From: Anaerolineaceae bacterium
GTDB taxonomy: Bacteria; Chloroflexota; Anaerolineae; Aggregatilineales; Phototrophicaceae
NCBI GenBank assembly: GCA_007693385.1
Contig: REDR01000131.1
Span: 1-64,000, forward strand
Direction of reading: 5' to 3'
Length of the DNA: 64,000 nucleotides
Below are positions 31,503 to 42,003 of the stretch, in pieces (within the stretch, counting starts at the first letter, position 1; each line of letters starts with the position of its first letter). The notes beneath the pieces were generated by a model. That model searched no databases, was not told the DNA's origin, and was given only the letters and a program-made list of their open reading frames with translations. The position numbers and the translations under genes were made by a program.

Positions 31503-31532
31503 AAAAAAAGCGCCGGACAGATGTCCCGCGCT
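31503..31532 (-). terminator. Intrinsic terminator in the leader of the aroH operon (candidate attenuator)
   Basis: Minus-strand AGCGC-G-GGAC-ATCT-GTCC-G-GCGCT followed by T7 (the T7 shares its first T with the stem); ~90 nt upstream of aroH. Confidence 0.85.
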
Positions 31533-31558
31533 TCACTGTTTTTTGATCGTCGTAAACC

Positions 31559-31666
31559 TTACCGACCAATCGCACCCAAGCACATCTGCCGACCATCTTC
31601 GATGTCGTCCGTGAAATAAAAATAGTAATAGGCAAATGTGTTGTTGTGGCCGCTAGCCAGCATCAT
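31559..31666 (-). CDS. Candidate 35-aa Phe/Tyr leader peptide MMLASGHNNTFAYYYFYFTDDIEDGRQMCLGAIGR
   Basis: ATGATGCTG...TTT GCC TAT TAC TAT TTT TAT TTC...CGG TAA; SD-like AAGGG 6 nt upstream of ATG; between promoter and terminator. Confidence 0.75.
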   Translation of the reverse strand: MMLASGHNNTFAYYYFYFTDDIEDGRQMCLGAIGR

Positions 31667-31708
31667 GTTAAACCCTTGTATCCGGCCTTGTCCGGTTGGA
31701 TAGACAAA

Positions 31709-31737
31709 AGCATAACCAACATCGCGCCGGATGTCAA
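31709..31737 (-). promoter_or_regulatory. Promoter TTGACA-N17-TATGCT driving the aroH operon leader
   Basis: Minus strand: TTGACA 31737-31732, 17-bp spacer, TATGCT 31714-31709. Confidence 0.8.
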
Positions 31738-32834
31738 CTTTTTGGATCGTCCGGCGTTGCGATGATGCGCCCTAGCCAGCCGTCTACATCTTCTGGCGTC
31801 AACTTGTCGGCCACGCGCACGGCAGGCTCTAGCCCCTCAAAGATGGACGTGATCCCGAACGGGCGTGTATAGGGCGCATCACCGAGTAAGACGACGCGGA
31901 CGCCATCGAAGCGCGGGATGTCCGCCGGAAAGCCCTCCGGCCACAGCCACGTATCGGCGTTGTCGCCGACCTCGACCACGCCTTCCGCGTTGAGCGCCCG
32001 CCAATTCGCATAATGAAACGCGAATACGTGCGGCGTCGCCTGATTGTACTGGTTATATTGCCGCGCCGCCTCGACGGTCTGCGGGCGCGGACGGTCACCG
32101 TCCAGCCAACCGGCGGACTCATCGCCGATGAGCGCTTCTTCCAGCAGGACGAAAAGCTGATGATTACCGGCGATGCCCTCAATCTGTACGCGATAACCGC
32201 GCCGATAATCGGGGTGAATCACGATCAATTCTTCGTCGTCCAGCACCGCCAGCAGTTGCGATAGCCAGTGGATCATATCGTGATGCAACGGGAAGCGCCG
32301 CAGACGCGAAGCCATGCGCCCCTCGTCGTTGGCGGCGCGGCGGGCGCGTTTACTGCGCGAGATCATCGCCACCGCCGGACGGCAAAATATCTCCATCGCG
32401 GAGAAAGCGTTAGCCTGCACGCTCATCGTGCGGGCGACGCCCGCGCCGTAACGGTCAATCGCTTCGGCTTCGGGCACGTCATCAGCGCGGGCGCGTTCCA
32501 GACAGGCAGAGACGAATTGCGACGCCTCGCCCAGCGTTTCGCCCAGCCGCGTGATGATGGCATGGACGGCGATATAGGGGTGTGCGCCTTGCTCGACCAA
32601 CGCGCCACACGCCGCCGATACCATCGCGGAGCGCATCGGCGCGGCGGCGAGAATGGTATCCACCAATCGCCCGACGCCCTGAGAGCGCGTCTCGTGGTCT
32701 ACGAATTCGCCAGCGTTGACCACCAATCCGGCGACCTCACGCAGATCATCGAATGTCATCGGGCGACCATCCGCCATGCGCGTGATGACCGCCTCCACCG
32801 CTTCGTTGAATTGCGTTATCTCCGGCGTTGTCAT
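31734..32834 (-). CDS. Unknown 366-aa protein encoded in the trp operon
   Basis: Intact ORF MTTPEITQFNEAVEAVITRMADGRPMTFDDL... starting in a 4-bp overlap with trpA stop; family not recognised. Confidence 0.65.
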   Translation of the reverse strand: MTTPEITQFNEAVEAVITRMADGRPMTFDDLREVAGLVVNAGEFVDHETRSQGVGRLVDTILAAAPMRSAMVSAACGALVEQGAHPYIAVHAIITRLGETLGEASQFVSACLERARADDVPEAEAIDRYGAGVARTMSVQANAFSAMEIFCRPAVAMISRSKRARRAANDEGRMASRLRRFPLHHDMIHWLSQLLAVLDDEELIVIHPDYRRGYRVQIEGIAGNHQLFVLLEEALIGDESAGWLDGDRPRPQTVEAARQYNQYNQATPHVFAFHYANWRALNAEGVVEVGDNADTWLWPEGFPADIPRFDGVRVVLLGDAPYTRPFGITSIFEGLEPAVRVADKLTPEDVDGWLGRIIATPDDPKS

Positions 32835-38843: not shown

Positions 38844-39422
38844 TTATACCGCCAAAAACTGATTTTCCATGAAGTTCTTCAGGATGCGCGGCCCGTAGCG
38901 CGTCAGGATGCTCTCCGGATGGAATTGCACGCCGATCACCGGATGCGATTCGTGCCGCAACGCCATGATGTCGCCTTCTTCGGTGAACGCGATGATCTTC
39001 AACGGGTGCGGCATCGTATCCTCTTCGACGATCAAGCTATGGTAGCGCGTGGCCTCAAACGGGCTGGGGATGCCGGTGAATAGCGGATCGTGTTTGTGAT
39101 ACACCATGCTGGTTTTGCCGTGCATCAGCTTTCCGGCTCTCGCCACGATGCCGCCGTAAGCCTGCCCGATGCATTGATGCCCCAGACACACACCAAGAAT
39201 CGGCGTGCTTTCGCCTAGCTCGCGGATGATGTCCAGCGAGATACCGCCGTCATCCGGCGTGCCCGGCCCGGGCGATATGACGATGTGTGACGGCTGATAA
39301 GCCCGCACATCGTCTAGCGTGATGTGATCGTTGCGGACGACGTGCAAATCCGCGCCCATTTCGCCCATCTGTTGCACGAGGTTATAGGTGAAACTATCGT
39401 AATTATCAATCACCAGAATCAT
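38844..39422 (-). CDS. trpG: Anthranilate synthase glutamine amidotransferase subunit
   Basis: MILVIDNYDSFTYNLVQ, ISPGPGTPDDGGIS, ILGVCLGHQCIGQAYGG, GVQFHPESILT. Confidence 0.95.
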   Translation of the reverse strand: MILVIDNYDSFTYNLVQQMGEMGADLHVVRNDHITLDDVRAYQPSHIVISPGPGTPDDGGISLDIIRELGESTPILGVCLGHQCIGQAYGGIVARAGKLMHGKTSMVYHKHDPLFTGIPSPFEATRYHSLIVEEDTMPHPLKIIAFTEEGDIMALRHESHPVIGVQFHPESILTRYGPRILKNFMENQFLAV

Positions 39423-40090
39423 GATGCGTCGTCTCCTCTGACATCGGGCGGCATGTGACGGCTGACCAGCCCTTCCAGATGTGTTAGATCATTAGCGCGT
39501 ACCAGACTCCAGCCGTCGCCGTCGCGCATGATCGTCGTTACCGATGAGTTATCAAAAGACATCGCCGATAGGTCAATGTCGGGCACCAGTTGCTTGAGCA
39601 TCAAGCGGGTGGTGAACGTATGCGACAGGATGCCGACGGTTTCGTTTTTCTCGCTTTCCGCCTCATAGCGTGCCAGCAGTTCCGCTAAGAACTCTGCGAC
39701 CCGTTGCCGCACTTCTACCATCGACTCGCCGCCGGGGATTTTGTAATTCTCTGGATCGGCCAGCAATTGTGCGTATTCGTCATGATACCAGCCGTGAATT
39801 TCCGGCACGGTCAACCCTTGAAAGTACCCGATGGAGCGTTCACGCAGACGCTGATCGTATATCGGTTCAAAGCCGAGTTTCTCCGCTAGAATTTGGGCAC
39901 TCTGACGGGCGCGGCGGTTGTCACTGCTGTACAGGGCGGCTAGTCCGATGTGGCGGATGAAGTTCGCCAGCCGGTACATCTGCTGTTGGCCGAGTTCGTT
40001 GAGGGGCGCGGCCACCCAGCCCTGCCAGCGTCCGGCTAGATTCCAGTCTGTTTCGCCCGAACGGATGAACACCAAGCGTTTTAACGGCAT
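39419..40090 (-). CDS. Histidine-phosphatase-superfamily (PGM-like) protein with non-canonical RSG motif
   Basis: MPLKRLVFIRSGETDWNLAGRWQGWVAAPLNELGQQQ..., YSSDNRRARQSAQ, GILSHTFTTRLML; ATGA overlap with trpG. Confidence 0.85.
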   Translation of the reverse strand: MPLKRLVFIRSGETDWNLAGRWQGWVAAPLNELGQQQMYRLANFIRHIGLAALYSSDNRRARQSAQILAEKLGFEPIYDQRLRERSIGYFQGLTVPEIHGWYHDEYAQLLADPENYKIPGGESMVEVRQRVAEFLAELLARYEAESEKNETVGILSHTFTTRLMLKQLVPDIDLSAMSFDNSSVTTIMRDGDGWSLVRANDLTHLEGLVSRHMPPDVRGDDAS

Positions 40091-40153
40091 TTTGTCTAAA
40101 AACTCCTCTTTAATAAATCGAACAACGCGCCAATCATAAACCAAATCCGCCGC

Positions 40154-41706: not shown

Positions 41707-41740
41707 AAAAAACCCTCTCATCCACACAAGGACGAGAAGG
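41707..41740 (-). terminator. T-box regulated terminator
   Basis: CCTTCTCGTCC-TTGTGT-GGATGAGAGGG followed by T6. Confidence 0.9.
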
Positions 41741-42003
41741 CGCTCCCGCGTTGCCACCTTGTTTCATGCACGCATAATCTGCGGACATGCACTCAGTAGG
41801 TACATGCGAACATATACCCTGCGCCATGATAACGGAGCGCTCGCCGTCGCCAGCTAATGAGCGATACATGATGATCGCCTTTCGCCTGCGCAACTCCCCG
41901 GCCCATTCAGTCCGTCCGTATGTATCGCCTTTCCAGCCACCGGCGACTCTCTGGACATCGTGTGCGAACTTACTATTCCGGTTCACAGTCTTTAGCACGT
42001 ATT
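41707..42003 (-). ncRNA. T-box riboswitch, UGG (Trp) specifier, leader of trp operon
   Basis: Stem I with S-turn AAUAGUAA, helices CCGG:CCGG and GUUCG:CGGAC around the specifier loop GAA-UGG (codon 41903-41905), distal CCAGAGAGUCGCCGGUGGCUGG, T-box UGGCAACGCGG (41746-41756), terminator downstream. Confidence 0.93.

Follow-up and report, generated by a model that had tools for sequence, protein, structure and literature searches.

The classical aromatic leader attenuators are those of pheA, pheST and trp. In E. coli, the leaders of pheA (pheL), pheST and trp (trpL) combine an ORF rich in codons for the product amino acid with alternating 1:2, 2:3 and 3:4 helices. The leader described here, upstream of the aroH-headed shikimate operon of an Anaerolineaceae bacterium, resembles them in both respects. 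The E. coli leaders respond to one amino acid each, have smaller target sets and come from a different phylum.

For an aro operon, attenuation by an aromatic leader is known from Corynebacterium glutamicum aroR-aroF (PMC11802643, citing Neshat et al. 2014; PMC4046766). According to these sources, its short Phe-Tyr-Phe leader precedes the DAHP synthase operon, and ribosome stalling raises transcription under Phe limitation, as we propose here. Unlike this actinobacterial leader with its three control codons, the present one has seven in eight positions, and the head gene and the operon also differ. The likeness is one of architecture, with no sequence homology demonstrated. The uORFC-13-1 motif upstream of Acholeplasma aroF, whose mechanism is only predicted (PMC8632094), is similar in that a shikimate gene is preceded by a terminator and by a predicted uORF containing Phe codon(s), and it is reported only from Acholeplasma and environmental sequences. 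A 2010 survey of attenuators and terminators, which started from leader-peptide systems earlier known in Proteobacteria and Actinobacteria, added Firmicutes; Chloroflexi are not mentioned in its main text (PMC2965389). Five Chloroflexi genomes were part of a survey of RNA regulons, which was limited to the attenuators that Rfam contained at the time and suggested that these may have arisen in gamma-proteobacteria (PMC3766115).

The first-pass annotation of this DNA was not aware of such attenuation for a shikimate operon in this kind of bacterium. That stands for Chloroflexota, for which no earlier report of an aroH leader was found in the openly searchable literature; for aro operons in general, aroR-aroF is a precedent. 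Comparative work by Lopatovskaya et al. 2010 (Lyubetsky and colleagues) could contain a Chloroflexota aromatic leader. The mechanism would be the known ribosome-mediated attenuation; within the literature searched, the phylum, the operon-wide target and the mixed Phe/Tyr(/Trp) run are new.

The leader and the operon behind it

The window analysed is a stretch of 64,000 nucleotides, and the leader lies on its minus strand (Table 1). The promoter TTGACA-N17-TATGCT overlapping the preceding stop, the Shine-Dalgarno-like AAGGG and the 35-codon ORF with seven Phe/Tyr in eight codons had all been pointed out in the first-pass annotation, and each was read directly on that strand. The promoter has 10 of 12 matches, 0.4 such sites being expected in the 700 nt scanned, and its -35 overlaps the TGA (31736-31734) of a preceding 366-aa ORF. 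The control run occupies leader codons 11-18. Within the 64-kb window, a stop-free 8-codon stretch with at least 7/8 Phe/Tyr occurs once, and 0 were found in 40 dinucleotide shuffles. Other 5-codon Phe/Tyr strings occur in the genome, mostly as TTC repeats; none of the four other genomic Phe/Tyr codon strings inspected resembled a leader.

The GC hairpin with T7, and chorismate mutase about 90 nt further on, were also found where first described. The terminator is composed of AGCGCGGGACA-TC-TGTCCGGCGCT, with one G.G mismatch in the stem, followed by U7 ending at 31503, the first T of the seven being the last T of the stem. It was missed by a simple terminator scanner and found by RNA folding. 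The aroH start codon lies 86 nt 3' of the U-tract, and the leader stop codon 142 nt before aroH. The sequence thus contains a promoter with a short ORF, codons for the product amino acids in this ORF, and a terminator between the ORF and aroH.

RNA folding gives -16.7 kcal/mol for the duplex of region 2 with region 3, versus -16.0 kcal/mol for the terminator hairpin. Region 3 takes in the apical 5' arm and the loop of the terminator as well as part of its 3' arm. Sequence and folding together yield an antiterminator that uses the terminator 5' arm and is mutually exclusive with the terminator. The region 1 duplex with GGCAGAUGUG, which overlaps region 2, folds with -14.1 kcal/mol. The whole-leader fold is only modestly more stable than its shuffles (z -1.9). 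Between 31380 and 31760 none of the Rfam amino acid operon leaders (Phe, Trp, His, Leu, Thr) was matched, even at E 10, where sub-threshold chance matches were all that appeared.

NCBIfam confirmed the nine-gene order aroH-aroF-tyrA-aroA-aroE-aroC-aroK-aroB-aroQ proposed from the first reading; the matches of shikimate kinase and prephenate dehydrogenase are strong, but under the curated cut-offs. From spacing and order, we infer that the nine genes are co-transcribed. The order aroH-aroF-tyrA-aroA-aroE... was found again in many relatives.

The trp operon lies a short way upstream of the leader, on the same strand. The 366-aa ORF between trpA and the aroH promoter is without an NCBIfam match, and a relative of it stands at the equivalent place in two other loci (L009 and L102). 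Inside the trp operon, a histidine phosphatase-like ORF separates trpE from the glutaminase subunit of anthranilate synthase; RSGETDWN near its start is presumably the histidine phosphatase motif, recognised by eye.

Table 1. Features of the aroH leader, its operon and the neighbouring trp region; all lie on the minus strand.
Feature	Position	Description	Basis
Promoter -35	31737-31732	TTGACA; spacer of 17 nt	sigma-70-type promoter
Promoter -10	31714-31709	TATGCT	sigma-70-type promoter
Shine-Dalgarno-like site	31677-31673	AAGGG, 6 nt 5' of the leader ATG	sequence
Leader peptide ORF	31666-31559	35 codons, MMLASGHNNTFAYYYFYFTDDIEDGRQMCLGAIGR	sequence and counterpart leaders in relatives
Region 1	31640-31631	CACAUUUGCC, start of the run; pairs fully with GGCAGAUGUG	
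Control codons	31636-31613	TTT GCC TAT TAC TAT TTT TAT TTC (F A Y Y Y F Y F)	
Segment directly 3' of the run	31609-31601	GACGACAUC; small hairpin possible with the 5' part of region 2	
Region 2 (antiterminator 5' strand)	31594-31582	GGUCGGCAGAUGU	pairing with region 3 and covariation in relatives
Partner of region 1	31590-31581	GGCAGAUGUG	
Intrinsic terminator hairpin and U7	31532-31503	AGCGCGGGACATCTGTCCGGCGCT	sequence and folding
Region 3	31524-31512	ACAUCUGUCCGGC, common to antiterminator and terminator	
aroH, chorismate mutase	31416-31048	operon head	TIGR01796, 139.8 bits (cut-off 82)
aroF (DAHP synthase), tyrA (prephenate dehydrogenase), aroA, aroE, aroC, aroK, aroB, aroQ	31033-23705	remainder of the operon	NCBIfam
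366-aa ORF	31734-32834	between trpA and the aroH promoter	
Histidine phosphatase-like ORF	39419-40144	inside the trp operon	
T-box leader	41725-41995	upstream of trpE	RF00230, 110.5 bits

Conservation and covariation in relatives

We compared the sequences preceding aroH in relatives, phylum members and named genomes, which gave 158 distinct regions after removal of duplicates, and scored as an aromatic run any stop-free window of 8 codons with at least 5/8 Phe/Tyr/Trp. Such a run is found in 114 of the 158 regions (72%), versus 3.4% of shuffles, and at the level of at least 7/8 in 51 of them, versus 0.0% of shuffles. Phe/Tyr as a two-residue set gave 111 regions; control sets without Phe or Tyr gave at most 7, and those with one of the two gave 7-16. 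In the order to which the window belongs, 41 of 52 loci have the run (47 of 52 with at least 4/8), and a few of its loci (L029, L062) have the terminator region with only a weak run. The run is present in all 23 loci from other orders of Anaerolineae, the class of the window, and in all 14 from three Chloroflexus/Roseiflexus-type families (f30, f40 and f66); among the other Chloroflexota families sampled it was found in 0/10. In several loci without a listed ATG/GTG/TTG ORF, the run is also visible in the reading frames. A promoter with at least 10/12 matches lies just upstream of 64% of the relatives' leaders, versus 0.9% of shuffles. Conservation of the Tyr/Phe run, the stop position and the terminator while the flanks drift, the comparison suggested in the first-pass annotation, is thus what the relatives display. 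Counted from the last aromatic codon, their stop codon lies at a median of 45 nt and the terminator begins at 72 nt, so that a ribosome finishing the run would soon cover region 2.

Phe is encoded by TTT in 225 of 277 leader cases; TTC prevails in the aro/trp genes of the window (126:40). Slower reading of TTT could sharpen the response of the attenuator. Modelling indicates that the choice among synonymous codons matters, as does a high proportion of control codons (PMC1183508). About 30 of 105 leaders have Trp codons in or beside the Phe/Tyr run, for example AWVWFGFYFYF and YYFWFWYF (loci such as L021, L042, L127 and L152), as if these leaders sensed all three aromatic amino acids. Outside named Chloroflexota, an aroH locus in a Candidatus Neomarinimicrobiota record (L160) has an aromatic leader, SFGFYYWF, and a hairpin; either lateral transfer or a mis-binned contig may account for it. 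No AroH relatives were found in viral contigs.

Presence of the leader varies with the spacing from trpA. When aroH follows trpA with a gap of less than 70 nt, the run is absent (8/8); with a gap of at least 200 nt, 29 of 31 loci have a run of 4/8 or better; gaps of 145-190 nt, which belong to other families, also lack it. In one locus (L119), the leader lies 5' of an inserted gene, which we take from its translation to be a cystathionine gamma-synthase-like protein, and aroH follows. As the leader stands ahead of the inserted gene, it would belong to the head of the transcription unit.

In the relatives, a segment about 20 nt 3' of the run pairs with the apex and loop of the terminator, with bases that differ among loci (for example, CGUUGC/GCAACG, CGUUAGC/GCUAACG, GUGAGG/UCUCAC and CGUUAUC/GAUAACG). 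Pairing of the whole post-run region with the whole terminator 5' arm discriminates weakly, own partners exceeding the mean of others in 72/105, and the focus on apex and loop was chosen after this result was known. Region 2 pairs with its own terminator apex at -13.0 kcal/mol, versus -10.0 with permuted ones (z -12 over 89 distinct apices). Shared ancestry inflates these permutation statistics, and the signal survives reduction to 50 dissimilar representatives (z -8.7; 0 of 50,000 permutations). A control segment of 44 nt 5' of the run showed no advantage of its own partner (z +2.1). In the relatives, the complementarity of regions 1 and 2 is also better than that with permuted partners (z -8.2). 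A large share of the covarying bases belongs to the terminator loop. Since loop bases are free of the constraint of the terminator stem, their covariation is direct evidence for the antiterminator. Judged from these comparisons, the antiterminator is co-evolving with the terminator.

Ribosome position, mechanism and alternatives

Further information was obtained by equilibrium folding of the RNA emerging from a ribosome parked at each codon, with the footprint edge at +13 nt past the A-site. With the A-site at codons 18-21, the antiterminator forms with a probability of 0.76-0.88; elsewhere its probability is about 0. The terminator prevails almost everywhere else, with a probability of about 0.9 without a ribosome. 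The antiterminator codons shift with the footprint, to 17-20 or 16-19 for +16 or +18, and to 19-22 for +10. A stall thus favours the antiterminator only at the final one, two or three aromatic codons, depending on the footprint, and with the smallest footprint tried at none. As it forms only with the A-site at codons 18-21, Tyr17 and Phe18 are likely the decision codons. Stalls on the first codons of the run still give the terminator in these equilibrium folds, which means that the long run has to work through cumulative delay or kinetics outside the model. The earlier aromatic codons would then act by delay.

We propose, with a probability of about 0.9, that a ribosome-mediated transcription attenuator sets the expression of the nine genes from aroH to aroQ through the charging of tRNA-Phe and tRNA-Tyr. 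Transcription would start near 31702, with a ribosome following RNA polymerase and translating the leader. With charged tRNA in good supply, this ribosome would pass the run and cover region 2, leaving region 3 to join the terminator, and transcription would stop around 31503. Under a shortage of Phe or Tyr, it would pause at the last aromatic codons, best at Tyr17/Phe18. According to the sequence and the switch point of the folds, a ribosome at these codons would melt the hairpin of GACGACAUC that sequesters region 2; region 2 would then pair with region 3 as antiterminator, and the polymerase would read into aroH. In the cell, the leader would accordingly be translated, transcription would terminate at the hairpin and the operon would respond to amino acid supply. 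The translation-coupled attenuation put forward in the first-pass annotation is well supported by the conservation of the element and by an antiterminator that the window contains and that covaries among relatives.

Alternatively, the hairpin could be the terminator of the upstream trp transcript only, with the ORF arising by chance in an AU-rich spacer and aroH expressed constitutively. The place of the trp operon, just upstream and on the same strand, agrees with this. However, the aroH promoter precedes the terminator, which would thus stop the aroH transcript too, and the element also occurs where no trp gene was found within 5 kb upstream (e.g. L105, L127). A chance ORF is further contradicted by a run that is specific, conserved over classes and tied to an antiterminator covarying with the terminator loop. 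We consider this explanation very unlikely.

We give equally little credence to a leader acting on translation or RNA stability (by coupling, reinitiation or mRNA protection) and not on termination. Leader ORFs can work in these ways, and coupling, weak at 142 nt from the stop codon to aroH, could still occur. Against this, most relatives have a GC-rich hairpin and then a U-run 5' of aroH, and it is the terminator, rather than the aroH ribosome-binding site, that takes part in the alternative structures. In some Chloroflexus-type members the U-tracts are only weak (e.g. L057), which leaves room for a different output there. Least probable of all is selection for the amino acid sequence itself, with the leader product serving as an arrest peptide or a small functional protein. 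A recurring [ST]-x-[DHY]-I-[VE]-like stretch does often come after the run in leaders of the window's family, but it overlaps RNA capable of pairing into region 2, and leaders outside the family have GFRNSVAVGGA or NRRACHAGGRLALKK in its place. The arrangement of Phe and Tyr inside the run also varies freely.

The trp T-box and the meaning of the aroH leader

A T-box leader lies upstream of trpE, about 10 kb from the aroH leader. It likely has a Trp specifier, UGG following GAA at the specifier position. All 20 trpE loci scanned, our genome included, have a T-box, and no Trp leader peptide was seen at trpE in these 20. The T-box covariance model (RF00230), in turn, found no match at the aroH leader. 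T-boxes sense tRNA charging and control termination, as the aroH leader would; unlike it, they bind uncharged tRNA directly, without a leader ORF. To judge by these elements, the two halves of the aromatic cluster, trp and aro, would use different tRNA-charging sensors.

Upstream of ilvB in 20 relatives, no Rfam leader was found, and the DNA mostly reads as another coding gene. In one locus (L198), about 150 to 45 nt before ilvB, there is a frame with LLGILVLIVLIIGLL (8/8 Ile/Leu/Val), then a GC hairpin and T7. We consider it a candidate branched-chain leader attenuator, from the same family as the window.

Taking the phylum as a whole, we moderately favour the view that attenuation in Chloroflexota is old and vertically inherited in Anaerolineae and the Chloroflexus/Roseiflexus-type families. 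One mixed run would read the combined charging of Phe and Tyr tRNAs (with Trp in about 30% of lineages) for the shikimate pathway. In the window's lineage it would operate next to the Trp T-box, giving a single aromatic cluster two mechanistically different tRNA-charging sensors. With trp under a T-box and aroH leaderless when it abuts trpA, the cluster offers a natural system for asking why a T-box or a leader serves each branch.

In summary, our comparison extends leader-peptide attenuation to Chloroflexota. Its target would be a near-complete shikimate pathway with the tyrosine branch, the source of the precursor that the three aromatic amino acids share. In these classes, small ORFs that are rich in Phe/Tyr and precede aroH are probably leaders and not genes, and could be annotated as such.
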